A stretch of 64,000 nt of DNA, from contig JAKEFB010000059.1 of the NCBI GenBank assembly GCA_022616275.1, positions 1 through 64,000 of the forward strand. The letters are read 5' to 3'. A program made the position numbers and the translations under genes. The notes under the pieces were generated by a model that saw nothing but the letters and a program-made list of their open reading frames with translations, searched no databases and was not told where the DNA came from. Source of the DNA: Chloroflexota bacterium (GTDB taxonomy: Bacteria; Chloroflexota; Anaerolineae; Promineifilales; Promineifilaceae). The first letter of the stretch is position 1. Every line of letters begins with the position of its first letter. This document shows positions 4,677 to 42,441 of the stretch, one piece after another.

Positions 4677-4700
4677 AGTTTCCTCGCCTCCCCTGTGTTG

Positions 4701-6014: not shown

Positions 6015-6084
6015 GTGCTGAGTATAGCTGGCTAATATTAGCATATGCTGGCTGGTAACGCACCTTTGGTGTAGGGGCGCGATG

Positions 6085-6267: not shown

Positions 6268-7158
6268 ATGACTGAAGGAGGCGCCTCCCCGAGCCGCCCG
6301 GCGGCTTCGCCATTGCGGCTGATTGTCGCCCTACTCATCGTTTTCATCTTGCCTCTGGCCCTGGGACTGTACCTGGCTCCACGCCTGGTGCCCCGGCCAA
6401 AAATCGGCGTCGTCCGCCTGAGTTACGACATTGTGGACGTGACGGCGTTTGAGATTATTGAACAACTCGATTATGCCCGCACCCACGACGACGTCAAGGC
6501 GGTGGTGCTGATCATCAACAGCCCTGGCGGCTCGGCCGCTTACAGCGAGGAGTTGTACCTGGACGTTTTAAACACCCGGCAAGAGATGCCGGTCGTGGCC
6601 ACGGTGGATTTGCTGGCGGCCAGCGGTGCCTATTATATGGCTGTGGCGGCCGATATGATTTACGCTAAGCCGACCTCCAGCGTGGGCAGCATTGGCGTTA
6701 TTGCCTTTGCCCCAGAGGACCCCTTCCTGGAAGAAGATCTGATTACCACTGGCCCCTACAAGGCCTTTGGCGGCACGCGAGACGGCATGATCCGCCAGAT
6801 TGAAATGGCGAAGTTCTCCTTTTTGGAAGCGGTAAGCACCGGCCGGGGGGATCGGCTGGTCGTAGATGTCGCTTTCCTCTCGCGGGCCGAGATTTTTACC
6901 GGCATCCAGGCCCAGGAAATGGGCCTGATTGATGGCCTGTCATCCACCGACGGCGCTATTCAGGAGGCGGCCAGGCTGGCCGGGATTAAGGACTACGAGG
7001 TCGTCGAGCTGTATCCGCTGGCTTTTCCTGAACAATTTCCCAGCGGGGCGACCGGTTACCGGCCACCGGTCATCGATCCCCAGGCGCTCTGGGCTATGCC
7101 CGCCGAGCAGCCGGTTGGGCCGCATTTTCGTTACGTAGACCCTTCGGTTGTGCGGTGA
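6268..7158 (+). CDS. S49 family serine peptidase (SppA-like signal peptide peptidase)
   Basis: S49 peptidases degrade signal peptides in the membrane with a Ser/Lys dyad. The 296-residue protein has one N-terminal membrane segment (about 17-37, LIVALLIVFILPLALGLYLA), the oxyanion region VLIINSPGGSAAYSEEL, the nucleophile region LAASGAYYMAVAADMIYAKP with the catalytic Ser in SGAYY, and SSVGSIGVI. The general-base Lys is probably the one in GPYKAFG. Length matches the short 36 kDa-type SppA. Start is supported by AAGGAG ten bases upstream. It precedes a secreted protein gene on the same strand. Confidence 0.88.
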   Translation: MTEGGASPSRPAASPLRLIVALLIVFILPLALGLYLAPRLVPRPKIGVVRLSYDIVDVTAFEIIEQLDYARTHDDVKAVVLIINSPGGSAAYSEELYLDVLNTRQEMPVVATVDLLAASGAYYMAVAADMIYAKPTSSVGSIGVIAFAPEDPFLEEDLITTGPYKAFGGTRDGMIRQIEMAKFSFLEAVSTGRGDRLVVDVAFLSRAEIFTGIQAQEMGLIDGLSSTDGAIQEAARLAGIKDYEVVELYPLAFPEQFPSGATGYRPPVIDPQALWAMPAEQPVGPHFRYVDPSVVR

Positions 7159-7164
7159 GTTATT

Positions 7165-7228
7165 GGTAATTAGGTAATTGGGTAATTTGGTAATTACCAA
7201 TTACTCAATTACTCAATTACCAATTACC
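7165..7228. repeat. A/T-rich imperfect hairpin of GGTAATT units
   Basis: Tandem GGTAATT-type words on the left face their reverse complements (CAATTACC, CAATTACT) on the right, giving a long imperfect stem between the S49 peptidase and the next gene. Its low GC contrasts sharply with its surroundings. It ends just before the ribosome site of the downstream gene. Confidence 0.5.
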
Positions 7229-7249
7229 CTCTTTAAGGAGCACTTATCT

Positions 7250-9565: not shown

Positions 9566-9578
9566 CCACTAGTGCCTG

Positions 9579-9611
9579 GCCTTCTCCTGGAGGTGACATC
9601 CAGGAGAAGGC
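9579..9611 (+). promoter_or_regulatory. hairpin carrying an AGGAGAAGG word upstream of the sulfatase-like gene
   Basis: Arms GCCTTCTCCTGG and CCAGGAGAAGGC are perfect 12-mers with a 9-base loop. The right arm contains AGGAGAAGG, the only purine-rich ribosome-site-like sequence before the ATG at 9622. It could end the upstream gene, or mask ribosome access to the downstream one; spacing to the ATG (about 12-15 bases) is longer than usual. Confidence 0.4.
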
Positions 9612-9621
9612 TGGTAAGCCT

Positions 9622-11208: not shown

Positions 11209-11243
11209 GGACTGAGCAGAGTTGGCAAGGCCAACTCCGAGGA

Positions 11244-11300
11244 CTGAGGACTGAGTACCCCTAGCACTCAGTCCTCAGAACTCAGTCCTCAGCACTTTTT
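11244..11300 (+). terminator. hairpin of CTGAGGACTGAGT units with a T run
   Basis: CTGAGGACTGAGT (11244-11256) pairs perfectly with ACTCAGTCCTCAG (11266-11278), which is repeated once more as AACTCAGTCCTCAG before a run of five T at 11296-11300. A smaller hairpin (GAGTTGG / CCAACTC) precedes it. It probably ends the sulfatase-like transcript. Confidence 0.55.
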
Positions 11301-11316
11301 CGGGAGAGGAAGGTAG

Positions 11317-12222
11317 ATGCTAGACTTTTTACAAATTGACCCGGTAGCCTTTGAGATTCCTATCGGGGATGGGTTTCCCATTTACTGGTATGGCATTATT
11401 GTGACCGTCGGCATTGCCATTGGGGCGTGGTGGGCCGGCCGGGAAATTGAGCGGCGAGGCGGCAACCCGGACGAGCTGTACAACGGCCTGTTGATTGTCG
11501 TCATTGCCGGTTACGCCTTTGCCCGGCTGTGGTACGTACTCCAGGAGGTGATTGCCGGCCGGGGCGCCCAGTACGATTCATTTCTGGACGTCGTCAACGT
11601 TCGTGCCGGGGGGGCGAATATCCTGGGCGGCTTTATTGGCGCAGCGTTGGTGGCTTACATCTACATCCGCTGGCGCCGCCTGAACTTCTGGCAGTACGCC
11701 GACGTGGCCGGCCCGGCCGTTCTCATTGCCCAGGCTATCGGCCGGTGGGGTAACTTCATTAACCAGGAATTATACGGCCCGCCAACCACGCTGCCCTGGG
11801 GCATCCTCATTGACATTCCCAGCCGCATTGGCCCCTACGCCGACTTGCAGCAATACCCCGAGACGACCCGCTTCCACCCGACCTTTTTGTACGAGTCGTT
11901 GTGGCTGCTGGCCGGTTTTATCCTCCTCCTCTACCTGAACCGGCGCTACCGGGAGCAGTGGAAGCCGGGCACGTTGTTTGGCGCCTTTCTGATCTGGTGG
12001 GGCGGCGGCCGGGCCTGGATTGAATTTTTCCGGCCGGACCAGCCGACCATCGGCAACACGCCCATCACCTACTCCATGATTGTCGCCGTGCTCCTGGCCC
12101 TGGCTGGCGTTTACATCTTGCTGCACCTGTATAATAAGCTGCCGGAGAACGCCCGAATGGCCCGCCGTCGCCGCCGCCGCGTCCGCAAGCCCCGGCCGCG
12201 CCGCGACCCCGAACTCGAATAG
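11317..12222 (+). CDS. lgt: prolipoprotein diacylglyceryl transferase
   Basis: Lgt transfers diacylglycerol from phosphatidylglycerol to the lipobox cysteine of prolipoproteins in the inner membrane. The 301-residue protein has the family N-terminus (FEIPIGDGFPIYWYGIIV), several membrane segments, the conserved GRWGNFINQELYG signature at about residue 142-154, HPTFLYESLW, and the C-terminal GRAWIEFFRPD. The C-terminus ends in a strongly basic tail (RRRRRRVRKPRPRR), probably cytoplasmic. The start follows a GGGAGAGGAAGG ribosome site. Many lipoproteins in this window depend on it. Confidence 0.95.
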   Translation: MLDFLQIDPVAFEIPIGDGFPIYWYGIIVTVGIAIGAWWAGREIERRGGNPDELYNGLLIVVIAGYAFARLWYVLQEVIAGRGAQYDSFLDVVNVRAGGANILGGFIGAALVAYIYIRWRRLNFWQYADVAGPAVLIAQAIGRWGNFINQELYGPPTTLPWGILIDIPSRIGPYADLQQYPETTRFHPTFLYESLWLLAGFILLLYLNRRYREQWKPGTLFGAFLIWWGGGRAWIEFFRPDQPTIGNTPITYSMIVAVLLALAGVYILLHLYNKLPENARMARRRRRRVRKPRPRRDPELE

Positions 12223-12252
12223 ATTGGCCTCGTGCGCGTTTTTTTGTAATAA

Positions 12253-13746
<1,494 letters not shown>

Positions 13747-13794
13747 GAGGGGGGATTGGAGATTAGAGATTGGGGTGGGCGTTAGAGTTAGATT

Positions 13795-13827
13795 AACCGG
13801 CCGGACCTGAGTCCGGCCGGTTTTGTT
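13795..13827 (+). terminator. rho-independent terminator of guaB
   Basis: A perfect 12-base stem (AACCGGCCGGAC / GTCCGGCCGGTT) with a CTGA loop is followed by TTGTT. It lies about 50 bases after the guaB stop and is the most classical terminator in the window. Confidence 0.85.
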
Positions 13828-13858
13828 AGAGATAGTGGCAGTTTAATTCAGGAGTTTG

Positions 13859-14086
13859 ATGGAACGGTCTAACCTCTTATGGGTTCACTCGAATGGCGGG
13901 CCACTGATTCTTTTGTCCGAGCATTTGCTCAACTATTGGGACGGCATAAATCCCCCAAAGGACGGCCGACAAATCGAGGCAACGTTTCGTTGGGGCCCAC
14001 ACAGCGCGGCCACCGACTATGATCGCGCCTGTGACGTTTCTGACTATATGGGGCTGTTAGAGGTCGGACCTGGCGCAGCTCTATAA
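13859..14086 (+). pseudogene. truncated Imm21-family immunity protein
   Basis: The 75-residue reading frame starts at an ATG behind an AGGAG site. It matches the N-terminal half of Imm21-type immunity proteins: LLWVHSNGGPLILL, then W-x-G, TDYDRACDVSDYMGLLEVG and PGAAL, where the family normally continues with a VLGDEP-like segment. Instead it stops at 14086, exactly where a second gene's sequence begins in another frame (see next entry). I infer a deletion that removed the C-terminal half of this gene and the start of the next. Family assignment is from memory of conserved words, not from a search. Confidence 0.65.
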
Positions 14087-14684
14087 CCCGCCGGCCAGGG
14101 AGTTTGCGCTGGTGGACGTGCCGCCGATGCAGTTCATTATGATTGACGGGAAAGGGGACCCGAATACCTCGCAGGAGTACGTGGCGGCGCTGGCGGCGCT
14201 TTACGCCGTGGCCTACACGCTCAAGTTTATGAGCAAACAGGAGCTGGGCCGGGATTACGGCGTCCCGCCGCTGGAGGGGCTGTGGTGGGCGTCGGATATG
14301 AGCGTATTCGCGCCGGACCAGACGGACAGAGACGCCTGGCAGTGGACGATGATGATTATGACGCCGGAGTGGATCAGGCTTGAGCAGTTCGCTGGGGCGG
14401 TGGAGGCAGCGCGGCGCAAGAAGAGCCCGCCGGAGCTGGATCACGTGCGCCTGGAGACGTTTCACGAAGGGCTGTCGGTACAGATCTTGCACGTTGGTCC
14501 TTACTCGGTCGAGGGTCCGACCATTGCCCGGCTGCATGGCGAGTACCTGCCGCAGCACGGCCTGGTCGAGAATGGCAAACACCACGAGGTCTACCTGGGC
14601 GACCCCAGGCGCACCGCGCCGGAAAAGCTCAAGACGGTTCTCCGCCAACCTGTCCGTATCGCTGCGAAGAACGTTATGGGCTGA
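14064..14684 (+). pseudogene. GyrI-like small-molecule-binding protein, start region lost
   Basis: From 14064 the frame reads SDLAQLYNPPAREFALVDVP and continues through FIMIDGKGDPNTSQEYVAAL, ALYAVAYTLKF and the C-terminal YLGDPRRTAPEKLKT, the pattern of stand-alone GyrI-like/DUF4180-type binding proteins of about 200 residues. An in-frame TAG at 14058-14060 and no ATG upstream mean the normal start is missing; the first usable codon is GTG at 14112, which would drop about 16 conserved residues. The gene may still be translated from that GTG (190 residues) or by reinitiation after the Imm21 fragment. All other family positions look intact, so loss is recent. Confidence 0.65.
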
Positions 14685-14791
14685 CCTTTTCTCTGCGTTT
14701 TTGTCCCCTGTTGTCGTGGCATTAAATCCCTTTTTTGGCCTGCTTCTGGCGGGAAATGTGGTATAATCGGTGGCTGGAATGAGGAGGTCTG

Positions 14792-14872
14792 ATGGCGGCC
14801 GTCGTGGCGCTTGGGGCCTCTATTGTGTGTACTTATCTACGTTTCTACGTTAACAAAACGGCCGGGCAGTAG
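14792..14872 (+). CDS. possible 26-residue hydrophobic peptide
   Basis: An ATG behind a strong AGGAGG site opens a 26-codon frame (starts MAAVVALGASIVCTYLRFYV, ends TAG). A TATAAT word lies at 14762-14767, a reasonable -10 distance from the ribosome site, but no good -35 is visible. The peptide could span a membrane once. No homologue is recognised, and chance cannot be excluded in such a short frame. Confidence 0.3.
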   Translation: MAAVVALGASIVCTYLRFYVNKTAGQ

Positions 14873-14930
14873 GGCACAAACTATTGTGCTCCTACCCTCC
14901 GACTGCCTTGCCCAACCAGGAATGTGAAGG

Positions 14931-15116
14931 ATGACCAAAGGAAAAGTACAACTGACCGAAGAACAGCAGAAGCGCAACCAGGGGATCCTGGACCGTCTTG
15001 AAGCGGACAAGAGGCGGCTTTTTGAAGAGACACGGGCGCTGCAGCAGCAGTACCGCCATGAAATCAAAAGCCAACGACCCAACGGCCAGATGGGTGAAGA
15101 AACCAGCGGAGAGTAG
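14931..15116 (+). CDS. small charged hypothetical protein, predicted coiled coil
   Basis: The 61-residue product is almost entirely hydrophilic and helical: LTEEQQKRNQGILDRLEADK followed by RRLFEETRALQQQYRHEIK suggests one amphipathic or coiled-coil helix. The ATG at 14931 is preceded by AAGGATG, a modest ribosome site. It sits 85 bases before purB on the same strand and may be co-transcribed with it. No family recognised. Confidence 0.5.
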   Translation: MTKGKVQLTEEQQKRNQGILDRLEADKRRLFEETRALQQQYRHEIKSQRPNGQMGEETSGE

Positions 15117-15201
15117 CGGCGCAGGGGGAGTATAAAAACAGCCTATTACTCAAAGTGACCGGGTGGAGCGCTGCCCAGAAGGCGACACGGGAGGGTAAAA
15201 C

Positions 15202-16599
15202 ATGGATTTCGGGCACGAGACCTTTATTTCGCCGTTTACCTGGCGCTACGGCAGCGCCGATATGCGCCACCTCTGGTCGGAAGTCCATAAGCGGCGGCTG
15301 ATGCGGCAGGTCTGGCTGGCCCTGGCCACCGCCCAGCACAAGGCCAGCCTGGTCACGGCCGAACAACTGGCCGACCTGCAACGCCAGGTGGAGAACGTAG
15401 ATATCGGTCGGGCGCTGGAGATTGAGCAGGAAACGCGCCACGACGTCATGGCCGAAATCCAGGCCTACGCCGAGCAGTGCCCGGTTGGCGGTGGGATTAT
15501 CCACTGGGGAGCGACCAGCGCCGACATTACCGATAACGTGGACGTGCTCCGCATCCGCCAGGCGGCCGGCCTGCTGGAAAGGCGCCTGAAAGAGGTGTTG
15601 GGCCGCCTGGCCGGCCGCATTGAGGCCACGGCCCACCGGCCGGTGATGGCCTATACTCACATCCAGCCGGCCGAGCCGACGACGTTGGGCTACCGCTTCG
15701 CCGTTTACGCCCAGGACTTGCTGGAGGACCTGGAGGACTTACAGGGGCTGATCGCCGGCTTGCGGGGTAAAGGCTTGAAGGGAGCAGTGGGAACCCAGGC
15801 CAGCTTCCAGGAAATCTTACAAGGCACGGAGATGAGCCCGGCCGAGATGGAGGCAGAAGCGATGGCTCTCCTGGACCTGCCCTATTTCCCCATTGCTACC
15901 CAGACCTACACCCGCCAGCAAGATTTGCGGGTGCTGCACGTGCTGGCCGGCCTGGCTGCCTCGCTGCACAAATTTGCCCTGGACTTCCGGGTGCTGCAAT
16001 CGCCGCCTTTTGGCGAGTGGGCCGAGCCGTTCGGCCGGCGGCAGGTTGGCTCTTCGGCTATGCCTTTCAAACGCAACCCGGTTAACACGGAAAATATTTG
16101 CTCCCTGGCCCGGACCGTGGCCGGACTGCCGGCCGTGGCCTGGGACAACGCCAGCCAGGCCATCCTGGAACGCAGCCTGGATGATTCGGCCAACCGCCGC
16201 CTGTTCCTGCCGGAGGCCTTCCTGGCGACCGAGGAAATGCTTCTCAAGACGGCCGAGGTGCTGGAGGGCATGGTCCTGGACGAAAAGGCGATGGCCGAGA
16301 ACCTGGCCCGTTACGGACCGTTTGCCGCCACGGAACGGGTGCTGATGGCCCTGGTGGCGGCCGGAGCCAGCCGCCAGGATGGGCACGAGTGGATCCGTCA
16401 GGCCAGCCTGCGAGCCTGGGAGGCGCTGCGCCAGGGCCAGGCCAATACCCTGGCGGATTTGCTGGCGGCCGACGCCGAGGTTAACCGTTATCTGCCGGCC
16501 GACCGGGTGCGGGAGTTGATGGCGGCCGAGAGGCACGTGGGCACGGCCGGCGAGCGAGCGGCTGCCTTTGCCCGTGCTGTGCGGGAAGCCATTGCCTGA
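15202..16599 (+). CDS. purB: adenylosuccinate lyase
   Basis: PurB splits SAICAR and adenylosuccinate, releasing fumarate, in purine synthesis. The 465-residue protein shows the helical fumarase/lyase-superfamily layout: HDVMAEIQAYAEQCP, the histidine-bearing IHWGATSADITDN, MAYTHIQPAEPTTLGYR and the signature loop GSSAMPFKRNPVNTEN with the catalytic Ser. The start follows GGGAGGG. The leader between 15117 and 15201 was inspected for a riboswitch without a convincing match. Confidence 0.95.
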   Translation: MDFGHETFISPFTWRYGSADMRHLWSEVHKRRLMRQVWLALATAQHKASLVTAEQLADLQRQVENVDIGRALEIEQETRHDVMAEIQAYAEQCPVGGGIIHWGATSADITDNVDVLRIRQAAGLLERRLKEVLGRLAGRIEATAHRPVMAYTHIQPAEPTTLGYRFAVYAQDLLEDLEDLQGLIAGLRGKGLKGAVGTQASFQEILQGTEMSPAEMEAEAMALLDLPYFPIATQTYTRQQDLRVLHVLAGLAASLHKFALDFRVLQSPPFGEWAEPFGRRQVGSSAMPFKRNPVNTENICSLARTVAGLPAVAWDNASQAILERSLDDSANRRLFLPEAFLATEEMLLKTAEVLEGMVLDEKAMAENLARYGPFAATERVLMALVAAGASRQDGHEWIRQASLRAWEALRQGQANTLADLLAADAEVNRYLPADRVRELMAAERHVGTAGERAAAFARAVREAIA

Positions 16600-31047: not shown

Positions 31048-31251
31048 GGTTCAAACCTCCTGGGATCAGAGATATTGGCGTCATGGTGCGGTATAGTTGT
31101 TATTACCGGCTTACACAAAGATTGCGAGTTTATTAAAGGGGGTAAGGGGAGAATCGTCCTATTGAAGCAAGACCTCGTTTTGATCCATACTAGAGTACTA
31201 GGGCTGTTGGCGGTTATTGATATCTAGTTGCATAACAAAGGAGTACCACAT

Positions 31252-32901
31252 ATGAATAAGCCCATAAAGTTCCCATTCATGTTGTTGGCCATCATTCTAT
31301 TATTGGGGATCAGTGGGGGGCAATGGCACTTCTCTCGCGCCGATCAGGCGCTTTTTCTGGTGCAGGCCGAAAGCGCCCAGGCGGCGGCGCAAATTGTCTA
31401 CCAGCACGGGGGCCAGGTCAAAGAAACGCTACCAATCATCAATGCCGTCTCGGCCGCCCTCTCCCCCAGGCAGGCGGCCGCCCTTTCGTCTGACAGCCGG
31501 GTCAGCCGGGTCTACCACAACACCGCCGTAACTGTCGCCGGCAATGGCACGCCAGCGGCCGACTTTCCCCAGGTGGTCGGCGCGGACCAGGTCTGGGCCC
31601 AAGGCGTTGACGGCGAGGGGATCGCCGTCGCCATCGTGGACACGGGGATTGACTACAGCGGCAGCGGGTCGCAGGTCATCGCCCGCTACGACGCGCTCGA
31701 TAACGGCTCGCCGCGCAAAGACCCGCATGGGCACGGCTCGTTTTTGTCCGGGATAATCGCCAACCGGCAGCAGGACGCCAACGGCTACCTGGGCATTGCG
31801 CCAGGGGTAGAGTTGGTGGACGTCCGAGTAATGGACGCCGAGGGCAAGGGAACTTACGCCGACGTGCTGGAGGGGTTGAACTGGGTACTGGCCAACGAGG
31901 ACACCTACAACATCCGGATCGTGAACCTGTCCCTGGTCGGCGGCGTCAACAGCCCCTACTGGGCCGATCCCCTCAACCAGGCCGTCGAGGTTCTCTGGGA
32001 CGCCGGGATCGTCGTCGTCGTTGCCGCCGGTAACGACGGCCCCGACCCGCTGACGATTGCCTCGCCGGCCAATAACCCGTTCGTGATCACCGTCGGGTCG
32101 TTTACTGACAACTTCACGCCGGCCGACGATAGCGACGATTTCGTTACCCCCTTCAGCGGGGCCGGCCCGACGGAAACCGGATTTGTCAAGCCCGACGTCA
32201 TTGCCCCCGGGGCGCACATCGTTTCGACGATGAAACCTGATATGACCTGGGCCGGCCAGCATCCCGACGATCACATTCAGGGCCAATACTACCGGGCGGC
32301 CGGCACCTCCACCTCGGCCGCCATTACCTCCGGCGTGGTTGCCCTCATGCTCCAGCAGCACCCGGCCATGACCCCCAACCAGGCCAAATTCACCCTCATG
32401 GACTCGGCCAGGCCGGCGGTTTATCCCAACAATAGCCTGGTCTGGGCCATTTTGCAGCAGGGCGCCGGCCGGATTTGGGCGCCGGAGGCTGTCTTTGGCG
32501 ACCACGCCGGCGAAGCCAACGCCAATATGACGCCTGGTGAGTTCTACGTTGGCCCTGTTGTCTACCGGGATGGGGCCTTCCGCATCGTGGACGAGGACGG
32601 CAACGAACCAGCCTGGGCTGGTGGCTACACCTGGTCCGGCGGCTACACCTGGTCCGGCGGCTACACCTGGTCGGGCGGCTACACCTGGTCCGGCGGCTAC
32701 ACCTGGTCCGGCGGCTACACCTGGTCCGGCAGCACAGTATGGGAACCCTGGTCGGAAGGAGACCTGTGGCAAAGCGGCTATACCTGGTCGGGGATCTACG
32801 GCTGGCCAGGCGGCTACACCTGGTCGGGCGGCTACACCTGGTCGGGCGGCTACACCTGGTCGGGCGGCTACACCTGGTCCGGCCTCTTACCATCTGATTA
32901 G
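31252..32901 (+). CDS. secreted S8 subtilisin-like serine protease with GGYTWS repeats
   Basis: The ATG at 31252 follows AAAGGAG and yields 549 residues: a signal peptide (FPFMLLAIILLLGISGG), a prodomain, and a peptidase S8 domain with Asp130 (VAIVDTGIDY), His161 (HGHGSFLSGI) and Ser353 (GTSTSAAITSG). The oxyanion Asn lies in VAAGNDGPD. The C-terminus is a run of GGYTWS units: six perfect copies, a divergent stretch, then four more. Such Trp/Tyr/Gly repeats could bind cell wall or self-associate, an inference. Ends LLPSD. Confidence 0.93.
   Translation: MNKPIKFPFMLLAIILLLGISGGQWHFSRADQALFLVQAESAQAAAQIVYQHGGQVKETLPIINAVSAALSPRQAAALSSDSRVSRVYHNTAVTVAGNGTPAADFPQVVGADQVWAQGVDGEGIAVAIVDTGIDYSGSGSQVIARYDALDNGSPRKDPHGHGSFLSGIIANRQQDANGYLGIAPGVELVDVRVMDAEGKGTYADVLEGLNWVLANEDTYNIRIVNLSLVGGVNSPYWADPLNQAVEVLWDAGIVVVVAAGNDGPDPLTIASPANNPFVITVGSFTDNFTPADDSDDFVTPFSGAGPTETGFVKPDVIAPGAHIVSTMKPDMTWAGQHPDDHIQGQYYRAAGTSTSAAITSGVVALMLQQHPAMTPNQAKFTLMDSARPAVYPNNSLVWAILQQGAGRIWAPEAVFGDHAGEANANMTPGEFYVGPVVYRDGAFRIVDEDGNEPAWAGGYTWSGGYTWSGGYTWSGGYTWSGGYTWSGGYTWSGSTVWEPWSEGDLWQSGYTWSGIYGWPGGYTWSGGYTWSGGYTWSGGYTWSGLLPSD
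32620..32880 (+). repeat. 18-base coding tandem repeats for GGYTWS
   Basis: Six 18-base units (GGCGGCTACACCTGGTCC, with TCG/TCC variation) fill 32620-32727 and four more fill 32809-32880. The spacer between encodes a relaxed version (WEPWSEGDLWQSGYTWSGIY). The units are nearly identical in DNA, so slippage should change copy number readily. Confidence 0.9.
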
Positions 32902-32985: not shown

Positions 32986-34461
32986 ATGCGGCCCAGAGAG
33001 TTGTTGTACAAGGCCTACTTCCTGGCAGTTTCTGTTTTAGGAATATCGCTCGTCTTATGGGGCATAAGCCAGATTCCCACCAGCCCCCAACCGCTCACGC
33101 TGCTCCTTTTGGTTTTACTGGCGGCCGCGGCCGAGAGCACAGCGACGATCACGCTGCAGGGGATTGATTTCTCGGTCAGCACCGTCGTCAGCCTGGCGGC
33201 GGCCGGGTTGTACGGGCCGTCGGCGGCTACGGTCGTCGTGGCCGGCTCACAACTTGCCCTGTGGCGGCTGATGCCGGACAAACCGGGTTGGCGGGTTGGC
33301 TTGCGCCGGCTGGCCTTTAACCTGGGGATGCAAAGCCTGGTCATGTTCCTGGCCGGCGCGGTTTTTGCGCAGGTGACGGAGTGGCTGGCGGCCTCGCCCA
33401 TTCTCGGCCAGACCATCCCCTGGCTTCTGGCGGCGGCCGTAGCCGACCAACTGAACCTGTGGATGGTCATCGCTATCCTCTATTTGCAGCGAGGCGTCCG
33501 GCCGTTGGAGGTCTGGCGGGAGAGTCGTTGGGCCGTTCCCATCAACGTCCTGGTGACCGGCGTTGGCGGAGGCATCCTGGCCTTTGCCGTCCGGGAACTG
33601 GAGTTATTGGGGGTGGTCCTCGTCTTTCTGCCGATTCTGGCCTCGGCTTATGCCTTTCGCCTGTACCTGGACCGCACCCAAAAGAAAATGGCCGAATTGG
33701 AAGGGCTGATCCGGCTGCGAACAGAGGCACTGGAGGAAGCCAACGTCCGGCTGGCAGAGACCAACGTGGAACTGGCCCAGCGGGAGGAGGAAAAGAACGC
33801 TTTTCTGGCCATCTTGACCCACGACATGCGCGCCCCGCTGACCAGCATTTACGGCTTCGCCCAGTTAATCCTCAGAGAGCCAGAGATGGACCCGGCCGAG
33901 CGCGAGCGGATGCTCAAGGTCATCGTCCGTGCCCAGGCCTCCCTCCTGGAAATGGCCAATAACATCCTGGAATTGCGCCAACTGGAATCAGGCGCGGCCA
34001 TCCTCCTGGAGCAGGAAAATTTTGACCTGATTGAACTCATTGCCGAAGTGATCGAATCGGCCGAAAGCCTGGCGGTGGAGAAGGGCATTGGCTTGTGGCA
34101 GCGAGGTGACATGGAGCCGATTTTTATCCGGGCCGACCGGTCGAAGCTGCGGCGGGTCATCACCAACCTGGTCTCCAATGCGATTAAATACACGCTGGAA
34201 GGACAGGTCTCCGTAACGGCCAAAATGAACGGCTATTGTGTGATCGTTGACATTCAAGATACAGGTTATGGCATTCCGGCCGAGGACTTGCCTTACATCT
34301 TCGAGCCTTTCCGGCGTGTCAGGAAGCACGAAACCCGGGCCGTCGGCACCGGCCTGGGGCTGACGATTGTCAAAAGCCTGGTCGAGGCGCACGGGGGAAC
34401 TATCGAAGTGGCCAGCCAGGAGGGGGTCGGCAGCACTTTCTCCATTGAGTTGCCGATCTAA
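32986..34461 (+). CDS. membrane sensor histidine kinase
   Basis: The 491-residue protein has about seven N-terminal membrane helices (to about residue 230), a helical coiled-coil linker (LIRLRTEALEEANVRLAETN), a HisKA domain with the phospho-acceptor His in LAILTHDMRAPLTSIYGFAQ, and an HATPase domain with N box VITNLVSNAIKYTLEG, DTGYGIPAEDLPYIFEPFRR and GTGLGLTIVKSLVEAHGG. The membrane part resembles 7TM-type sensor regions without a visible extracellular domain. No receiver gene is adjacent; the nearest is at 39462. It differs in kinase core from the two kinases downstream. Confidence 0.9.
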   Translation: MRPRELLYKAYFLAVSVLGISLVLWGISQIPTSPQPLTLLLLVLLAAAAESTATITLQGIDFSVSTVVSLAAAGLYGPSAATVVVAGSQLALWRLMPDKPGWRVGLRRLAFNLGMQSLVMFLAGAVFAQVTEWLAASPILGQTIPWLLAAAVADQLNLWMVIAILYLQRGVRPLEVWRESRWAVPINVLVTGVGGGILAFAVRELELLGVVLVFLPILASAYAFRLYLDRTQKKMAELEGLIRLRTEALEEANVRLAETNVELAQREEEKNAFLAILTHDMRAPLTSIYGFAQLILREPEMDPAERERMLKVIVRAQASLLEMANNILELRQLESGAAILLEQENFDLIELIAEVIESAESLAVEKGIGLWQRGDMEPIFIRADRSKLRRVITNLVSNAIKYTLEGQVSVTAKMNGYCVIVDIQDTGYGIPAEDLPYIFEPFRRVRKHETRAVGTGLGLTIVKSLVEAHGGTIEVASQEGVGSTFSIELPI

Positions 34462-34752: not shown

Positions 34753-35751
34753 ATGAAAACCCAATTAACCCGCTTTTTACCCTTCGTCGTTTTGTTCGCC
34801 CTGTGGTCGGTGGCCTGCACGGCCGCGCCGCAGCCCACACCGGCCGCGTCCGCTGAGCCGTTAAAGGTCAGTTGGAACCTGTGGCCGGGAACCTATCCAC
34901 TCGTCATTGGCCATGAGCGGGGGCTGTTTGAGAAGCATGGTGTCCGGGTGGAGCCGGTGTTTATCGGTACCAGCTACTCGACAATTATTTCCGACTTTGC
35001 CGCCGGGAAACTTGACGGCGCTTCCTTCGTCCTGGGCGATCTACTGACCGTCGCCATAGAGACAGACGTTAAAGCAGTCATGGTAACAGATACCTCCGAC
35101 GGCGCGGACCAGGTGCTGGCAACCGCGGACATTGCCACCCCGGCCGACCTGCGGGGCAAGAGCGTTGGGGCAAACTTTGGCACCTTCAGCGAGCTGTTCG
35201 TCCGGACCATGCTGGAGGCCAATGGACTGACGATCAACGACGTTAACCTGGTGGATATGGATGGGGAAGCCGTGCTGGATGGAATGTCCGGTACCATCCA
35301 GGCTGGGCATACCTGGGAACCGTACACGTCACAGGGTATTGCCCAGGGATACCACGTCATCTTTTCGACGGCCGATACCCCTGGCCTCATTACCAACGTC
35401 CTGGCCTTTCACACGGAGCTGATTGAAGAACGCCCTGAAGCGGTGCGGGCTTTCGTGGCCGCCTGGTTTGAAACTATAGAGTGGTGGCAGGCCCACCCGG
35501 CCGAGGGCAACGCCATTATTGCCGAGGCGGCCGGATTGAAACCAGAAGAAGTTTCGACGGAGGGTGTCAGGTTTCTCGACGCGGCCGATAATCTCCTGGC
35601 TTTTGCCCCCGGAACCGACCATACCTCGGCCTACTTTTCGGCTCAAAGCTACCTTGAGTTTTTCAGCAGCGTTGGGGTACTGACCAGCGCGCCCGATTTT
35701 GAAAAGCTGTTCGAGGCTTCTTTCATCAAGGAATTTAACCAGGCGCAATAG
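34753..35751 (+). CDS. NitT/TauT-type (SsuA/NMT1-like) substrate-binding lipoprotein, paralogue 1
   Basis: The ATG at 34753 follows GGGGAGG and gives 332 residues, the same length as the paralogue at 38391. A lipoprotein signal ends in SVACT. The binding fold shows VSWNLWPGTYPLVIGHERGL, FEKHGVRVEPVFIG, LDGASFVLGD, the lobe-2 region ADLRGKSVGANFGTFSELFV and IQAGHTWEPYTSQG. Family members bind nitrate, sulfonates, taurine or thiamine precursors for ABC import, but no permease or ATPase gene is near. A membrane kinase follows immediately (35 bases). The preceding 291 bases (34462-34752) showed no coding feature. Confidence 0.88.
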   Translation: MKTQLTRFLPFVVLFALWSVACTAAPQPTPAASAEPLKVSWNLWPGTYPLVIGHERGLFEKHGVRVEPVFIGTSYSTIISDFAAGKLDGASFVLGDLLTVAIETDVKAVMVTDTSDGADQVLATADIATPADLRGKSVGANFGTFSELFVRTMLEANGLTINDVNLVDMDGEAVLDGMSGTIQAGHTWEPYTSQGIAQGYHVIFSTADTPGLITNVLAFHTELIEERPEAVRAFVAAWFETIEWWQAHPAEGNAIIAEAAGLKPEEVSTEGVRFLDAADNLLAFAPGTDHTSAYFSAQSYLEFFSSVGVLTSAPDFEKLFEASFIKEFNQAQ

Positions 35752-35786
35752 GGACTACTGCACACTTTAACTCAGGGAAGTTTGTT

Positions 35787-38381
35787 GTGTTTACTCCTGA
35801 CCGGCAACTCGTCACCGAGCGCGGCCAACAGAAGCAAGGGCCACTGCAAATCGTGGCCAGTTGTGCCGTTACCAGCGTGGTGTTGGTGCTTGGCGACGTT
35901 TACCAGATCGTGCATAGCATGGCCTGGCAAACGCTGGGGTTTACGGCCCTGTCGCTTATCTTGCTGGCTGCCTCGCTGTTCAGCCTGAGGCTTATGCGGC
36001 GGGGCCAAGTCAACCGGGGTGGCCTGATCCTGAGCTTCACCATGTTCCTTCTTGCCCTGGCCATACCCATCCTGGCGGCCGGCGTGGGCCTGCTGGTGGC
36101 CCTGGTGCTTTTTATCCTCACCCTGTTCCTGGCGATGCAGGTGGCCACCCCCGGGCAGCTTTCCTGGTTAGTGGTCCTGAGCATCCTGGTTGGCCTGGCA
36201 GCGGTGTTGATTGACCTGTATCAGCCACCGACACAACTGGCCAGCGAGGTTTCCAGCCGCTTCATCACCGCCGTAGCCATCGTTCTGGTTGCAGCCGCCA
36301 TTTTTTTAGTCGTCCGCCAATTCAAACAGTACCCCCTGTCAACGAAACTGATCATCGTTGCTTTGAGCCTGGCTCTCATTCCGCTGATCTTTGTTGGGGT
36401 AGTCAGCAGCCGGTCTACCCGGGCGGCGCTGGAGGCCGGCGCCAACCAGGCCCTCTTTGCCGCTGCTTCAGAAACGGCGGCCAGCCTGGATGCCTTTCTC
36501 GGGGCCAACCTGGACGCGATTCGCATTGAGGCCCAACTGCCCCAGTTCGGCGAGTACCTGAGCCTGCCGGCTGAGGAACGGCCGGGCAGCCCGGAGGAAG
36601 CGGACGTCGCCCAAATCCTGCGCGCCCTGGGCCGCAAAAACGCCATAGACATCTCCTCTTACGCCCTGTTAGACCTCCAGGGCATGGTCCTGGTAGACAC
36701 CTTTGCCTCAGACATTGGCCGCGATGAATCTGGCAACAGTTATTTCCTGACGCCACTGCAAACCAGCCTACCTTACGTCTCGCCGGTCGAGCTGTCGCCG
36801 ACGACCGGGAACAGCTCTTTATACTTCAGCAGCCCGGTCCGCGACGCCAGGGGCCAAATCGTCGGCCTGTTGCGGGCGCGCTACGAAGCCAGCGCCTTGC
36901 AGCGAATTGTCAGCCAGAAGTCCGGCCTGCTGGGCGAGGGATCGTTCGCCATTTTGCTGGATGAGAACCACATCTTCCTGGCTCACGGCGACGAGCCGGA
37001 ACTTGTCTTGAAAACGGTTGCCCCGCTCCCCGCAGCCCGCCTGGCGGTGTTACAGGGCGAACGGCGTTTGCCGCTGGGGGCGGCGGCCGACCTGTCGGCC
37101 AACCTGCTTGATTTTGAGCAAGACCTGGCCAGGAGTGGGCCTCAGCTATTCTTTGCGACGCATATCTATGCTGGCGCCGGCCTTCCTGCGGAGGAAGCAG
37201 ACCGCGACCAGGTAGCGGTTACAACCATGCAAACCCAGCCATGGTGGGTGGCCTTTGTCCAGCCAAGAGCGGCGTTCCTGACCGCGATTACCGTTCAGAC
37301 GCAGACGGCGATGCTGGTGGCCCTGGGAACGGCCGGGATAGTGGCCATCCTGGCCGGCGCGCTGGCCCAATTCTTATCCCGGCCAATCGTCCAAATGACG
37401 GCGGCCGCCCGGCGGGTGGCTGACGGCCACCTGGACGTGTACGTGCCCATCCGCGCCGACGACGAAATCGGCGCGCTGGCGCTGGCCTTCAACATGATGG
37501 CCGCCCAACTGCGCGATTTGATCGGCTCCCTGGAGCACCAGGTGGAAGAACGAACGGAAGACCTGCGCCTGATCAACATGGAGTTAATGGAGTCCTACCA
37601 GGCGCTGCGAGAGAACCAGGCCAAGCTGTTGACGGCCGAAAAGATGGCCTCGCTGGGCCGGCTAACGGCCGGTATCGCCCACGAGATGAACACGCCCCTG
37701 GCGGCGGTGCGCGCCTCGCTGAGCGAGTTGGATAAGCTAACCGTCGAGTACCAGGAGTCCATCGGCGACCTAGAGGTTGAACCCGGCGACCACCAGGAAA
37801 TTGCCCGCGAGATGCGCCAGGCGATCCGCTTAGCCGACAGCGCGGCCGAACGGGCGGCCGGCTTCGTGCGCAGCATTAAGACCCAGACCCGCGACCGTTC
37901 CTCTGAAGAGCGGCGACATTTTGACGCCGTGCCGGTGACGCAAGAGGCGCTGCTGCTCTTGCACCATGCCCTGCAGCAGGGTGATTGCTCGGTCGAATTT
38001 GAGCCGGGAGAGCCGCACATAGAACTGTATGGCTCACCGGGTCGTTTTGCCCAGGTGGTGACCAACCTGGTCAGCAACGCGATTGATGCCAGCGCCGCCA
38101 ACGGCGGGGCCATCACCGTCCGGCTGAGACGGAACCCGGAAGGGGTCAGCCTGGAAGTCAGCGACGATGGGGTTGGCATTGTGCCGGAAAATATGAGCCG
38201 GATTTTTGAGCCGATGTTCACGACGAAGCCGTTTGGCCAGGGCACGGGGTTGGGCCTGACTATCGTCCACGACATCGTTACCGGCGAGTTTGGCGGCACC
38301 ATTGAGGTCTCCAGCCAGCCGGGACTGGGCGCTGTTTTTCAACTTCAGTTCCCTGATAGGAATAATCCAGATGGTTTATAG
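35787..38381 (+). CDS. membrane histidine kinase with extracellular Cache-like domain and HAMP
   Basis: The GTG at 35787 follows AGGGAAG and gives 864 residues. There are about six N-terminal membrane helices (about 20-175), a further helix (LIIVALSLALIPLIFVGVVS), a large extracellular Cache-like sensor (about 215-500, with FLGANLDAIRIEAQLPQFGE, SSYALLDLQGMVLVDTF and SSPVRDARGQIVGLLRAR), a second membrane helix, a HAMP domain (RPIVQMTAAARRVADGHLDV), a coiled coil, then HisKA with His in GRLTAGIAHEMNTPLAAV and an HATPase core (FTTKPFGQGTGLGLTIVHD). It sits between two binding-protein genes, which are obvious candidate ligand presenters. Confidence 0.9.
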   Translation: MFTPDRQLVTERGQQKQGPLQIVASCAVTSVVLVLGDVYQIVHSMAWQTLGFTALSLILLAASLFSLRLMRRGQVNRGGLILSFTMFLLALAIPILAAGVGLLVALVLFILTLFLAMQVATPGQLSWLVVLSILVGLAAVLIDLYQPPTQLASEVSSRFITAVAIVLVAAAIFLVVRQFKQYPLSTKLIIVALSLALIPLIFVGVVSSRSTRAALEAGANQALFAAASETAASLDAFLGANLDAIRIEAQLPQFGEYLSLPAEERPGSPEEADVAQILRALGRKNAIDISSYALLDLQGMVLVDTFASDIGRDESGNSYFLTPLQTSLPYVSPVELSPTTGNSSLYFSSPVRDARGQIVGLLRARYEASALQRIVSQKSGLLGEGSFAILLDENHIFLAHGDEPELVLKTVAPLPAARLAVLQGERRLPLGAAADLSANLLDFEQDLARSGPQLFFATHIYAGAGLPAEEADRDQVAVTTMQTQPWWVAFVQPRAAFLTAITVQTQTAMLVALGTAGIVAILAGALAQFLSRPIVQMTAAARRVADGHLDVYVPIRADDEIGALALAFNMMAAQLRDLIGSLEHQVEERTEDLRLINMELMESYQALRENQAKLLTAEKMASLGRLTAGIAHEMNTPLAAVRASLSELDKLTVEYQESIGDLEVEPGDHQEIAREMRQAIRLADSAAERAAGFVRSIKTQTRDRSSEERRHFDAVPVTQEALLLLHHALQQGDCSVEFEPGEPHIELYGSPGRFAQVVTNLVSNAIDASAANGGAITVRLRRNPEGVSLEVSDDGVGIVPENMSRIFEPMFTTKPFGQGTGLGLTIVHDIVTGEFGGTIEVSSQPGLGAVFQLQFPDRNNPDGL

Positions 38382-38390
38382 GAGAGTGGC

Positions 38391-39389
38391 GTGAACATCC
38401 GACTTATGCGCTTTGTGCCCCTTGCTGTTTTGTCCGTCCTGTGGCTGGCGGCCTGCACGGCCACACCGTGGCCAACCCCGGCCGCGGCCGCCGAACCGCT
38501 CAGGGTGAGCTGGAACCCGTGGCCTGGGAGTTATCCGCTCATCATTGGCCACCAGCGAGGGTTGTTCGAGAAGCATGGCGTCCAGGTGGAGCCTGTGTTT
38601 ATCAGTACGGCCTATTCGGCGAGTATTTCAGATTTTACAGCCAATAAGCTTGACGGCGCCTCGCTCGCCCTGGGAGACCTGCTGCCCATTGCCACGCGAA
38701 CAGATGTCAAGGCCGTCCTGGTGACGGACGTTTCCACTGGCGCAGACCAGGTGCTGGCGACGGCGGACATTACCACCCCGGCCGACCTGCGGGGCAAACG
38801 CGTCGGGGCCATTCTGGGCACATTCAGCGAAGTATTCGTCCGGGCGATGTTAGAAGCAAACAGCCTGACGACTGGCGATGTCGAACTGGTCAACGTGAGT
38901 GAAGCGGCCCTGCTGGAAGAAATGCCGGATACCATTCAAGCGGGCCATACCTGGGAGCCATATACTTCAGAAGGTCTTGCCCGGGGCTATCACGCCATCT
39001 TTTCGACGGCAGACACCCCTGGTCTCATTGCCGGCGTTCTGGCTTTCCATACTTCAGTGATTGAAGAGCGCCCGGAAGGGATTCAAGCCTTCGTAGCCGC
39101 CTGGTTTGAAGCTGTTGAATGGTGGCAGGCGCACCCCCAGGAGGGCAATATCATCGTTGCCGAGGCGGCCGGGTTAAAGCCGGAGGAGATTACGATAGAG
39201 GGCCTTGACCTGGCCGGCCACGAAGATAACCTCCGCGCTTTTGCCCCTGGCAGCGATTACACGTCCGTCTACTTTTCAGCCCAAAGTTACCTTGAGTTTT
39301 TTATTGGTCTTGGTATCTTGACCAGCGCACCCGACCCTGAAGCGCTATTTGAGCCTTCTTTCATGATGGAATATAGACGGGCGCGCTAG
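38391..39389 (+). CDS. NitT/TauT-type substrate-binding lipoprotein, paralogue 2
   Basis: GTG at 38391 follows AGGAGAG, nine bases after the upstream kinase stop, so the genes are one transcript. The 332-residue product is collinear with the protein encoded at 34753 (shared VSWNPWPGSYPLIIGHQRGL, FEKHGVQVEPVFIS, IQAGHTWEPYTSEG, AAGLKPEEITIEG) with a lipobox LAACT. Differences cluster in the LVNVSEAALLEEMPD and entry regions, so the ligand may differ. It also lacks cognate permease genes. Confidence 0.88.
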   Translation: MNIRLMRFVPLAVLSVLWLAACTATPWPTPAAAAEPLRVSWNPWPGSYPLIIGHQRGLFEKHGVQVEPVFISTAYSASISDFTANKLDGASLALGDLLPIATRTDVKAVLVTDVSTGADQVLATADITTPADLRGKRVGAILGTFSEVFVRAMLEANSLTTGDVELVNVSEAALLEEMPDTIQAGHTWEPYTSEGLARGYHAIFSTADTPGLIAGVLAFHTSVIEERPEGIQAFVAAWFEAVEWWQAHPQEGNIIVAEAAGLKPEEITIEGLDLAGHEDNLRAFAPGSDYTSVYFSAQSYLEFFIGLGILTSAPDPEALFEPSFMMEYRRAR

Positions 39390-39461
39390 CATGTAGACAA
39401 ACCAGGTTGGTTAAGTTGACCTGGAATAACAGGAGTTCATTCCTCGACAGGAGTAATCAAG

Positions 39462-40940
39462 ATGGCTCGTAAAACAAAAACCCCTCAGGCCTCTGGCCAG
39501 ACCATTTTGCTGGTAGACGATGATCTCAATTACCTGGAGGTCTGTCAGCGTTTGCTGGAACGGGAGGGGCACGAGGTCTTGACGGCGATGAATGGTTCTG
39601 AGGCGCTTAGACGCCTTCAGCAGGAACATGTGGACCTTTTGCTGCTGGATTACTATATGCCTGGCATGACCGGTGAGGAGGTTGTCACCCAACTGCGCCA
39701 ATCGAACCGGTACATCCAGGTCGTTTTGCAAACCGGCTACGCCAGCGAACAGCCACCCCGCGAATTATTGCGCCGTTTAGACATCCAGGGTTATTACGAC
39801 AAGAGCGAAGGGCCGGACAAGCTGCTGCTGTGGGCGGACGTCGGTCTCAAAGCAGCCTACACGGTGCAGTTGCTGTATAAGAGCCGCCAGGGTCTGCGCT
39901 ACATTCTTGAGGTGACGCCAGACCTGCACAAGATCCAGCCCCTGGAAGACTTGCTGCAGGGCATTTTGTGGCAGGTGGCCGGCCTCTTAGGGGCGATGAA
40001 TACTTTTTTGGCAGTGGTGGAAGACGGCGGCATTTTTCTATCCGGGTCGGAAGAAACAGAAAGTTTCCTGGCGATGGCTGAAGAGAACGCAGAGTTGATT
40101 ATCCGGGCAAGCACCGGACGTTTTAACAATTGTGAGAGGGTAGACGCCTGCCTGGAGGCAGAAAAGGTTGGGGCAATCTATCAGGTCATGCAACATGGGG
40201 TAATTGAAACTGTGCAGTCTACGACGATCGTGCCTTTGCGGGTCGGTGAACTAACGGTCGGGATTATTTACCTGGACCGGCCGATTGTAGTGGAGCGTGA
40301 TGTTGAACTGCTGTCTATCTTTGCCAACCAGGCGGCCGTGGCCATTCACAACGTCCAGTTGTACGAAATGGCTACGCTTGACCCGCTCACCGGCGTCTAC
40401 GTGCGCCGCTTCTTTGAACAATCGTTGCAGCGCGAACTCCGGATCGCCTTCCGCTCCCAGCAGCCCATTGCGCTGTTGATCGCCGATTTAGACGGCTTGA
40501 AGCGAATTAACGACACCCTTGGCCACCTGGCCGGGGACCAGATGTTGGCAGCGTTAGGGAAGGTCTTGCGCCAGGCCACCCGCAGCACGGATATTGTCGG
40601 CCGGTATGGCGGTGATGAGTTTGTCCTCCTTCTCCCGCAAACCGACGTTGAGGGTGCGCAGCGGGTTGGCGAGCGGATATTCGCTCTGGTGGAGGAGATG
40701 AAGGCCAAAGACCCACACAATCCGGCCGGCTTACAGGTGAGCCTGGGTCTGAGCGTCCTGGTGCCCCCCACCTTTTCATTGGCAGAAATACCACGCCCCA
40801 CACCTTATTCTTACTATGACTCTATGGCTCAAATTTTGATCCTCCGCGCCGATAAAGCGCTGTACCAGGCGAAGAAAGAGGGTGGTAATCACTTATGCAT
40901 GGCTGACCCGGTTGAATGGCAACCCGTACGGCAACTATAG
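39462..40940 (+). CDS. response regulator with GAF and GGDEF (diguanylate cyclase) domains
   Basis: The 492-residue protein has a receiver at about 13-130 (VDDD acidic pocket, Asp63 in LLLLDYYMPGM, Lys in YYDKSEG), a GAF domain at about 145-290, and a GGDEF domain at about 300-480 beginning MATLDPLTGVYVRRFFEQ. The active motif RYGGDEFVLLLP is intact, and the inhibitory I-site RSTD lies exactly five residues before GGDEF, so product inhibition by cyclic-di-GMP is expected. It is the only receiver protein in this five-gene group and the likely target of its kinases. Confidence 0.93.
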   Translation: MARKTKTPQASGQTILLVDDDLNYLEVCQRLLEREGHEVLTAMNGSEALRRLQQEHVDLLLLDYYMPGMTGEEVVTQLRQSNRYIQVVLQTGYASEQPPRELLRRLDIQGYYDKSEGPDKLLLWADVGLKAAYTVQLLYKSRQGLRYILEVTPDLHKIQPLEDLLQGILWQVAGLLGAMNTFLAVVEDGGIFLSGSEETESFLAMAEENAELIIRASTGRFNNCERVDACLEAEKVGAIYQVMQHGVIETVQSTTIVPLRVGELTVGIIYLDRPIVVERDVELLSIFANQAAVAIHNVQLYEMATLDPLTGVYVRRFFEQSLQRELRIAFRSQQPIALLIADLDGLKRINDTLGHLAGDQMLAALGKVLRQATRSTDIVGRYGGDEFVLLLPQTDVEGAQRVGERIFALVEEMKAKDPHNPAGLQVSLGLSVLVPPTFSLAEIPRPTPYSYYDSMAQILILRADKALYQAKKEGGNHLCMADPVEWQPVRQL

Positions 40941-40962
40941 GGTATCTCAAATCGAGGAAGCA

Positions 40963-42441
40963 ATGAACTTCACAAAACTCAGGCAGTGGCTGGCCCCACC
41001 GGTCTTTGCCGACGAAGAACAAACACGGATTGCCGGCCTGCTCAACACCATTTTATTAAGCTCCCTGGCGGCCGTGCTTACTCTTTCCCCGGTGTTTATT
41101 CTTCTTGATGAGCGGTTATTCTACCGATTGGCTAATTTAGCCATGAGCGCAACAACGCTGTTCCTGGCCTTAAGCCTGCTGTTCCTCGTACGTCGTGGCC
41201 ACGTTCAGGCGGCCAGTGTGTTGTTGTCGGTCATGTTCCTATTTATCATCACTCTCAGCGTTTATTTGTTTGGCGGCCTTGCCAGCCCGATCGCCAGCAG
41301 TTATATCGTGATTATCGTTACCGCCGGCCTGCTGCTGGGAGGCCGGGCAGCGATCATTTTTGCTCTGTTAAGTATGCTGCTACTCCTGGGGGTAGGCTGG
41401 GTCTTAGACGGTGGCACCCTGACATCGGGCACCTTTAGCTCCTGGATACTCTATGTTGTCATTGAAGGCCTGATGGCAGCCGTGCTGCGCCTGGTATTAA
41501 ACAGCATTCAAAGCACCCTGGAGCGCGCCCGCCGCAACGAACGGGCCCTGGCCGAAAGCAACCGTGAGTTACAGGCCATCCAGGCTTCCCTCGGGCAGCG
41601 CGTTACCGAGCGCACCCGGGCGCTGCAAGAGGTCAATACGGCGTTGTCGGAGTCGTACTATGCCCTCCAAGAGAACCAGGCCAGGCTGTTGATTTCGGAA
41701 AAAATGGCTTCCCTGGGCCGGCTGACGGCCGGCGTGGCCCACGAGATCAACACGCCGCTGGCGGCCGTCCGCGCCTCGCTGGCCGAACTGGATAAGCTGG
41801 CCCTGGAATACCAGGACTCCATTGGCGACCAGGAAGTCGAGCCTGGCGACCACCAGGAAATTGCCCAGGAAATGCGCGAGACGATCCGGCGGGCCAGTAG
41901 CGCGGCCGAGCGAGCGGCCGGCTTTGTGCGCAGTATGAAAACGCAGACACGCAACCACTCCACCGAAGAAAAGCAGCCTTTCAACGCCGTGCCGGTCGCC
42001 CAAGAAGCGCTCCTGCTTCTGCAGCATGCCCTGCGCCAGACTGGCTGCACCCTGGCCTTTGAACCGGAAAGCCAGGAGATAGAACTGTACGGCTCGCCCG
42101 GCCGGTTTGCCCAGGTAGTGACCAACTTAGCCAGCAACGCCATTGACGCCAGCGCCGCCAATGGGGGGGGACCGGTCATTGTGCGGTTGAGGCGTGAGGC
42201 AGATGGGGTGAGCTTGCAGGTCAGCGATTATGGCGTGGGCATCGCGCCTGAGAATATCAGCAGAATCTTTGAGCCGATGTTCACGACCAAGCCGTTTGGC
42301 GAGGGCACCGGGCTGGGTTTAACCATCGTTCACGACATCGTCGTAGGCGAGTTTGGCGGGACCATCGAGGTCTCCAGCCAGCCGGAGCTGGGGACTGTGT
42401 TTCAACTCCATTTTCCGAAGGCGAGCCATGAGAACGACTGA
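40963..42441 (+). CDS. membrane histidine kinase, close relative of the Cache kinase
   Basis: Start at ATG 40963 (GAGGAAG just upstream) gives 492 residues, 22 bases after the response regulator. About six membrane helices (about 20-190; LIVVI-type stretches such as IASSYIVIIVTAGLLLGG) and a coiled coil precede a HisKA domain with His in GRLTAGVAHEINTPLAAV and an HATPase domain (IFEPMFTTKPFGEGTGLGLT). The catalytic half is nearly identical to that of the 35787 kinase, but the extracellular Cache and HAMP regions are absent. It probably signals to the same regulator. Confidence 0.9.
   Translation: MNFTKLRQWLAPPVFADEEQTRIAGLLNTILLSSLAAVLTLSPVFILLDERLFYRLANLAMSATTLFLALSLLFLVRRGHVQAASVLLSVMFLFIITLSVYLFGGLASPIASSYIVIIVTAGLLLGGRAAIIFALLSMLLLLGVGWVLDGGTLTSGTFSSWILYVVIEGLMAAVLRLVLNSIQSTLERARRNERALAESNRELQAIQASLGQRVTERTRALQEVNTALSESYYALQENQARLLISEKMASLGRLTAGVAHEINTPLAAVRASLAELDKLALEYQDSIGDQEVEPGDHQEIAQEMRETIRRASSAAERAAGFVRSMKTQTRNHSTEEKQPFNAVPVAQEALLLLQHALRQTGCTLAFEPESQEIELYGSPGRFAQVVTNLASNAIDASAANGGGPVIVRLRREADGVSLQVSDYGVGIAPENISRIFEPMFTTKPFGEGTGLGLTIVHDIVVGEFGGTIEVSSQPELGTVFQLHFPKASHEND

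Follow-up and report, generated by a model that had tools for sequence, protein, structure and literature searches.

The window, meaning the whole 64-kb stretch of DNA that was analyzed, carries a run of five plus-strand genes at positions 34753 to 42441, separated in order by gaps of 35, 9, 72, and 22 bases. The run is made up of the following features.

34753-35751, plus strand: SBP1, an NMT1/THI5-type solute-binding protein (SBP) of 332 amino acids, from Pfam and predicted fold
35787-38381, plus strand: HK1, GTG start, 864 amino acids, with a multi-TM segment, dCache ectodomain, TM, HAMP, HisKA, and HATPase_c
36420-37301, plus strand: dCache domain of HK1, extracytoplasmic, about residues 212 to 505, candidate docking site for SBP1 and SBP2
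38391-39389, plus strand: SBP2, GTG start, 332 amino acids, a paralogue of SBP1
39462-40940, plus strand: REC-DUF3369-GGDEF response regulator, 492 amino acids, from Pfam and motifs
40963-42441, plus strand: HK2, 492 amino acids, a multi-TM segment fused to an HK1-like kinase core, without dCache

The starts used for SBP1 and HK2 lie later than those of the longest open reading frames (34678 and 40882, respectively). The gene calls agree with the initial annotation, which had described five adjacent plus-strand genes in one run, and the tight spacings that it reported, 9 and 22 bases, were measured as such.

Both SBPs match NMT1 and NMT1_2 above the Pfam cut-off and are 70% identical to each other over 332 residues, which bears out their description as two paralogous NitT/TauT-type binding lipoproteins. 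Cys22 of SBP1, nearly invariant across 65 relatives, is the putative lipid anchor by the lipobox rule. The predicted structure of SBP1 has a type II SBP fold (pLDDT 93.6), in keeping with the NMT1/NitT-TauT type given to both proteins by the profiles, and the nearest solved structure is TauA. The predicted TauA/SsuA-like fold fixes no ligand.

Pfam identifies dCache_1 (47.6 bits; cut-off, 45), HAMP, HisKA, and HATPase_c in HK1, and neither GGDEF nor EAL. Hydropathy and a model of the dCache with its flanking helices place the ectodomain between TM segments, and the dCache_1 match above cut-off, together with the double-Cache fold, makes HK1 a dCache receptor. The nearest solved folds are DctB, PctA, and Tlp3, the titles of which show small ligands in the dCache; because DctB and PctA bind ligand directly, the HK1 dCache may also sense alone. 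When solved structures were searched by sequence with the sensor alignment, mainly HAMP and membrane parts were matched. One structure, 5ere, was considered as a natural SBP-dCache fusion, being a 540-residue extracellular receptor the later part of which aligns with the dCache. It was absent from the three listings obtained with SBP queries and was also set aside as support because its dCache is listed with cytosine in a passage of PMC8694187.

HK2 contains HisKA and HATPase_c, with a PilS-like 6TM match below cut-off and no dCache match by Pfam, and its hydropathy profile revealed no room for a large extracytoplasmic domain. The two histidine kinases are related, as first described: their cytoplasmic parts are 73% identical over 290 residues, and a search of the genome with the HK2 core (E ≤ 1e-30) returned only HK2 itself and HK1 (79% identical). 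The multi-TM part of HK1 resembles those of other Chloroflexota receptors; that of HK2 had no match among 44 sequences. HK2 lacks the dCache that recurs in the SBP partners and is therefore more likely to supply a second input than to act as a receptor for the SBPs. The original proposal that the SBPs present ligand to both kinases can thus be kept for HK1, in view of the conserved pairing and the separate SBP branch (both below), and dropped for HK2, where nothing supports docking in a protein without dCache.

The regulator encoded between SBP2 and HK2 matches REC, DUF3369 (65 bits), and GGDEF in Pfam, as well as GAF_2 (28.7). Its REC site is kept (acidic residues 19 to 21, D63, T91, and K114), and an RxxD I-site at 374 lies five residues before the GGDEF motif at 383; with the Asp, Lys, GGDEF, and RxxD features in place, it is a predicted diguanylate cyclase of the REC-GGDEF type. 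REC, GGDEF, and an intact I-site were therefore named correctly at the outset, and the GAF domain named with them gives way to DUF3369, which matches better.

A scan with an ATPase motif and with a permease HMM constructed for this analysis tagged no ABC permease or ATPase gene in the 64-kb window, in line with the initial annotation; the permease and ATPase genes that accompany the SBP of a NitT/TauT ABC transporter are thus missing from the run. The nearest permease-domain matches on the contig form a pair at 68.4 to 69.8 kb. An SBP_bac_5 protein is encoded at positions 67 to 1947, again with no permease gene tagged in the window. Among 45 loci of more distant NMT1 SBPs that served as controls (29 from the family search and 16 from the class search, all short at 2 to 4 kb), 38 carried tags for a permease or an ABC ATPase, and an HK1-type sensor was found in none. 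In a careful tree of 72 SBPs, one branch, with support of 96/94, splits sensor-linked from ABC-linked proteins, and a quick tree of 93 SBPs likewise has one change between the two. The quick tree left out SBPs shorter than 230 or longer than 450 amino acids (hence the 540-residue kind), L154, L147, and 17 cyanobacterial loci; the careful tree omitted a further eight rows along with most members of a single distant ABC-linked group. Both sample relatives of SBP1, and within this sample the single split speaks for one recruitment of the sensor-linked SBPs, which fits the earlier suggestion that the binding proteins were recruited as ligand presenters. One cyanobacterial locus (L038) received both tags; the ATPase gene in question lies 1.5 kb upstream and appears by eye to be of an unrelated energy-coupling type.

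It could still be argued that the SBPs serve an ABC transporter encoded elsewhere and that their neighborhood is coincidental. The genome has 101 permease-domain matches, one of them beside an NMT1 SBP (contig C106); in L067, genes for an ABC ATPase and a permease are found 1.4 to 4.5 kb upstream of the SBP gene, separated from it by a gene on the opposite strand; and L197, where the receptor comes after a complete NMT1 ABC operon, shows that members of the receptor family can occur in a real transport operon. However, the C106 system comes with an SBP of its own (30% identity to SBP1), and both the control loci without HK1-type sensors and the separate branch of sensor-linked SBPs argue against a distant transporter, which we regard as highly unlikely. 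The SBPs of the run look like former transporter parts that now probably pass a signal to a membrane sensor controlling cyclic-di-GMP.

Among 53 genomes of the family, close relatives of the SBPs were found in this genome only (next best E value, 1.7e-13). In the class, 29 of 397 genomes match the SBP at E ≤ 1e-20, and 13 of these (this genome and those of L080 to L091) have a sensor-type SBP by score and gene context. We assembled 61 related loci, 46 from a pattern scan of genome contigs (which gave at least 46) and 15 from the class; many come from related cyanobacteria, and the counts are not independent events. As in the window, a receptor gene lies downstream of the SBP gene in 56 of the 61, at a distance of at most 100 bases in 48 of the 56; the receptor is broken or shortened in two of these (L061 and L068), and the other five loci (L038, L040, L046, L077, and L147) are fragmented or reach a contig edge. 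This strong conservation of the SBP-receptor pairing extends well past this genome. The five-gene order, a search for which had been suggested as a check, was not seen in the 61 loci; other class matches were viewed as short loci only.

Pfam searches of 57 partners, HK1 included, at E ≤ 0.001 detected HAMP in 53 and dCache_1 in 51 (some below cut-off), followed by varied outputs: HATPase_c in 23, GGDEF in 19, response regulator in 15, SpoIIE in 3, and HD in 1. Partners that were itemized (10 and 3) include GAF-ended proteins, kinases with receivers, SpoIIE phosphatases, and one PAS-GAF-HD protein. Because the sensor end stays while the output changes, the ectodomain is the most likely partner of the SBP. 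The cyclic-di-GMP output proposed initially is strengthened by the recurrence of GGDEF, either fused, as in the 19 partners (for the most part related sequences from cyanobacteria), or encoded separately behind the sensor kinase, as at 5 of the 12 kinase-type loci from cyanobacteria (L058, L064, L065, L067, and L069). The window, with its kinase and separate GGDEF gene, matches the latter layout. Pfam confirmed both REC and GGDEF for L064, L065, and L069; in L041, REC is accompanied by an incomplete GGDEF. A complete GGDEF gene was not seen next to the kinase in 7 of the 12 loci, some of which reach a contig edge.

Sensor matches are weak (69 to 85 bits) in L072 from Pseudomonadota, which has no dCache_1 match, and in the archaeal loci L075, L076, and L078, and are no better than those of ordinary dCache genes of this genome, which score 45 to 116 bits. 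In L079, L144, and L152, the SBPs adjoin kinases without a sensor match. Since matches elsewhere are weak or absent, the same receptor subfamily is shown only for Chloroflexota, Cyanobacteriota, and L055, a Sorangium assembly; in Pseudomonadota and archaea there is just an SBP beside a membrane kinase. The archaeal SBP relatives (Nitrosopumilus-type) lie directly before a membrane histidine kinase weakly like the HK1 sensor.

SBP genes are repeated in tandem ahead of a single receptor gene in L035, L037, L048, and L052; at positions 7916 to 14668 of L037 (Trichocoleus), four tandem copies are followed by one dCache-GAF-kinase receptor. A gene of about 260 amino acids lies between SBP and sensor in L140 (10720-11583), L141 (8190-8978), and L146 (8148-8939). 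In L140, its product belongs to the Cyclase family (PF04199) and begins like a lipoprotein, so that the ligand may be made or altered extracellularly. Mirror-tree distances of SBPs and sensors correlate (r of 0.94 for 33 pairs, 0.97 for 17 cyanobacterial pairs, and 0.74 for 15 Chloroflexota pairs), but we give this no weight because linked genes share history. Promoter and terminator scans of the DNA gave results near chance.

At four-fold sites, SBP1 and SBP2 differ by 0.43 (129 sites) and the two kinase cores by 0.42 (114 sites). As the SBPs (70% identity) and the kinase cores (73%) have diverged alike, a single duplication of an SBP-kinase unit would explain both, and we read HK2 as having come to carry another membrane part after that duplication. 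Equal divergence, as if a unit had been copied, is also what two parallel pairs would leave, SBP1 with HK1 and SBP2 with HK2, the latter acting through its multi-TM segment; the SBPs of L144 and L152, which lie beside kinases without a sensor match, would provide parallels. This arrangement appears quite improbable, given that the HK2 profile offers no large extracytoplasmic domain, that the regulator gene sits between SBP2 and HK2, and that dCache is present in 51 of 57 partners.

We then viewed the receptor family from the other side, by its neighbors. A search with the sensor alignment at E ≤ 1e-60 hit 55 of the 397 class genomes at 74 places or more, with at most four candidates scored per genome; of the 74, 14 are in SBP1-type loci, 41 in 40 further loci that were examined, and 19 outside the loci covered. 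Another kind of SBP is a neighbor gene in 16 of the 40 further loci (11 of 20 in the first batch and 5 of 20 in the second), and no recognized SBP neighbor was seen in the remaining 24. The neighbors are other NMT1 proteins (L188 and, with ABC genes, L197), SBP_bac_8 (L190), Bmp (L191, L192, and L224), Peripla_BP_6 (L198, L217, and also L192), SBP_bac_1 (L194, L195, L220, and L222), SBP_bac_5 (L199, L204, and L205), and PBP_like_2 (L225). By chance, about 0.7 SBP neighbors would be expected for 40 receptors with two neighbors each, versus the 16 observed; this estimate uses about 65 SBPs (34 SBP_bac_8, 19 SBP_bac_5, 8 Peripla_BP_6, and few NMT1) among an assumed 7,500 genes of this genome and counts those kinds only. 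The SBP kinds found as neighbors, which span both SBP structural clans, cluster on the receptor tree, with 12 changes versus a shuffled mean of about 21 and none of 200 shufflings as low; the receptors beside SBP_bac_5, SBP_bac_1, and Bmp form one clade each. The receptors of SBP1-type SBPs do not (at least three changes; AU P value of 0.027). Since the SBP1-type SBPs form one clade and their receptors several, partners have probably been exchanged. The receptor tree left out the same 17 cyanobacterial loci and sensors below 250 bits (L072, L075, L076, and L078), and its careful version one more row.

In this genome, dCache_1 was found at ten places, seven above cut-off. SBP neighbors were seen by eye at all three dCache genes of contigs C260 and C150 versus none of the seven other dCache_1 places. 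Contig C150 holds a second array (L210, G000:C150:24000-40000, 3000-16001) of a dCache receptor, an NMT1 SBP, a dCache receptor, an SBP_bac_8 protein, and a protein of 1,977 amino acids, with no permease match in the array stretch. From such neighborhoods one might tentatively go further and see in the dCache family a general docking receptor, around the dCache-HAMP core of which input and output evolve independently, with exchangeable SBPs of six or seven Pfam families (NMT1, SBP_bac_1, SBP_bac_5, SBP_bac_8, Bmp, Peripla_BP_6, and PBP_like_2) and exchangeable outputs (kinase, cyclase, phosphatase, and HD-type); we hold this wider view to be possible, although somewhat doubtful.

The same data bear on whether the dCache senses its ligand directly, with the SBPs just concentrating or buffering ligand near the membrane or being co-regulated without contact. 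The small ligands held by the DctB, PctA, and Tlp3 dCache structures and the 24 receptor loci with no SBP neighbor are what direct sensing would predict, but the pairing persists through changes of output and phylum, tandem SBPs stand before one receptor in the four loci named above, and the same position is repeatedly taken by SBPs of unrelated families. We therefore judge direct sensing to be unlikely. We favor, with moderate confidence, a reading in which the REC-GGDEF protein is driven by HK1, on the dCache of which the SBPs dock, and HK2 adds a second input. As lipoproteins located outside the cytoplasmic membrane, SBP1 and SBP2 would capture a small solute and attach to the HK1 ectodomain; docking would alter the HAMP-coupled kinase activity of HK1, which would phosphorylate the REC domain of the regulator encoded two genes downstream and so set cyclic-di-GMP synthesis, with the I-site giving product feedback. 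HK2 would act on the same regulator in response to another signal, perceived through the membrane segment of HK2 itself. Docking, ligand dependence, phosphotransfer, and response direction are inferred here from gene content, order, conservation, SBP separation, and the duplicate cores.

In LuxP-LuxQ of Vibrio, an SBP is docked on the Cache-type ectodomain of a kinase, as we propose for the window; the system differs in SBP family, ligand (AI-2), and relay (to LuxU/LuxO), and is likened here by description. TorT-TorS is an SBP-activated sensor kinase as well. LuxP-LuxQ is mentioned in a passage of PMC12410723, and LuxQ is listed as a Cache without ligand in PMC8694187. Passages of PMC9602780 and PMC11113362 describe SBP genes that often adjoin sensor kinase genes, as in the window, and at least 13 SBP families reported to activate receptors; BctC-BctE is an example (PMC9602780). 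In Vibrio cholerae, NspS-MbaA also consists of an adjoining SBP gene and membrane receptor gene, with cyclic-di-GMP governed by the ligand state of NspS; however, according to PMC8967002, NspS binds polyamines and MbaA is a fused GGDEF-EAL receptor, unlike HK1, whereas the window combines a kinase with SBPs of the NMT1 type and with a REC-GGDEF protein encoded by a gene of its own. NasS-NasT shares the turn of a nitrate-transporter-type binding protein from transport to signaling, but NasS is predicted to be cytoplasmic and controls the RNA-binding protein NasT rather than a membrane receptor (PMC3795266).

SBP-driven receptors are already known as a kind, as excerpts of PMC9602780, PMC11113362, and PMC8967002 make clear, and have so far been studied mostly one by one. 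Term searches of a collection of open-licence papers listed no account of NMT1-type SBPs paired with dCache receptors; the pairing is a variant that is widespread and in which both ends can apparently be exchanged. A passage of a 2022 review of cyclic-di-GMP sensing names SBP_bac_3 as the only periplasmic-binding-protein domain family studied there (PMC8846402); the statement refers to domains that form part of the enzymes themselves, and NspS-MbaA adds another case. If true, a route to GGDEF fed by an NMT1 protein would be a new input class for cyclic-di-GMP networks. Chloroflexota, Cyanobacteriota, and the myxobacterial assembly offer a natural series in which the sensor is kept and the output changed, or the receptor kept and the SBP kind changed, which makes testable how unrelated binding proteins could address one ectodomain; the SBP clade extends to Pseudomonadota and archaea with other kinases.

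Just upstream of the run, the window encodes a protein that looks subtilase-like by eye and has many GGYTWSGG repeats (31228-32901), then a membrane histidine kinase (32986-34461). A similar-looking pair is found in the same genome, in L209 from position 9313.
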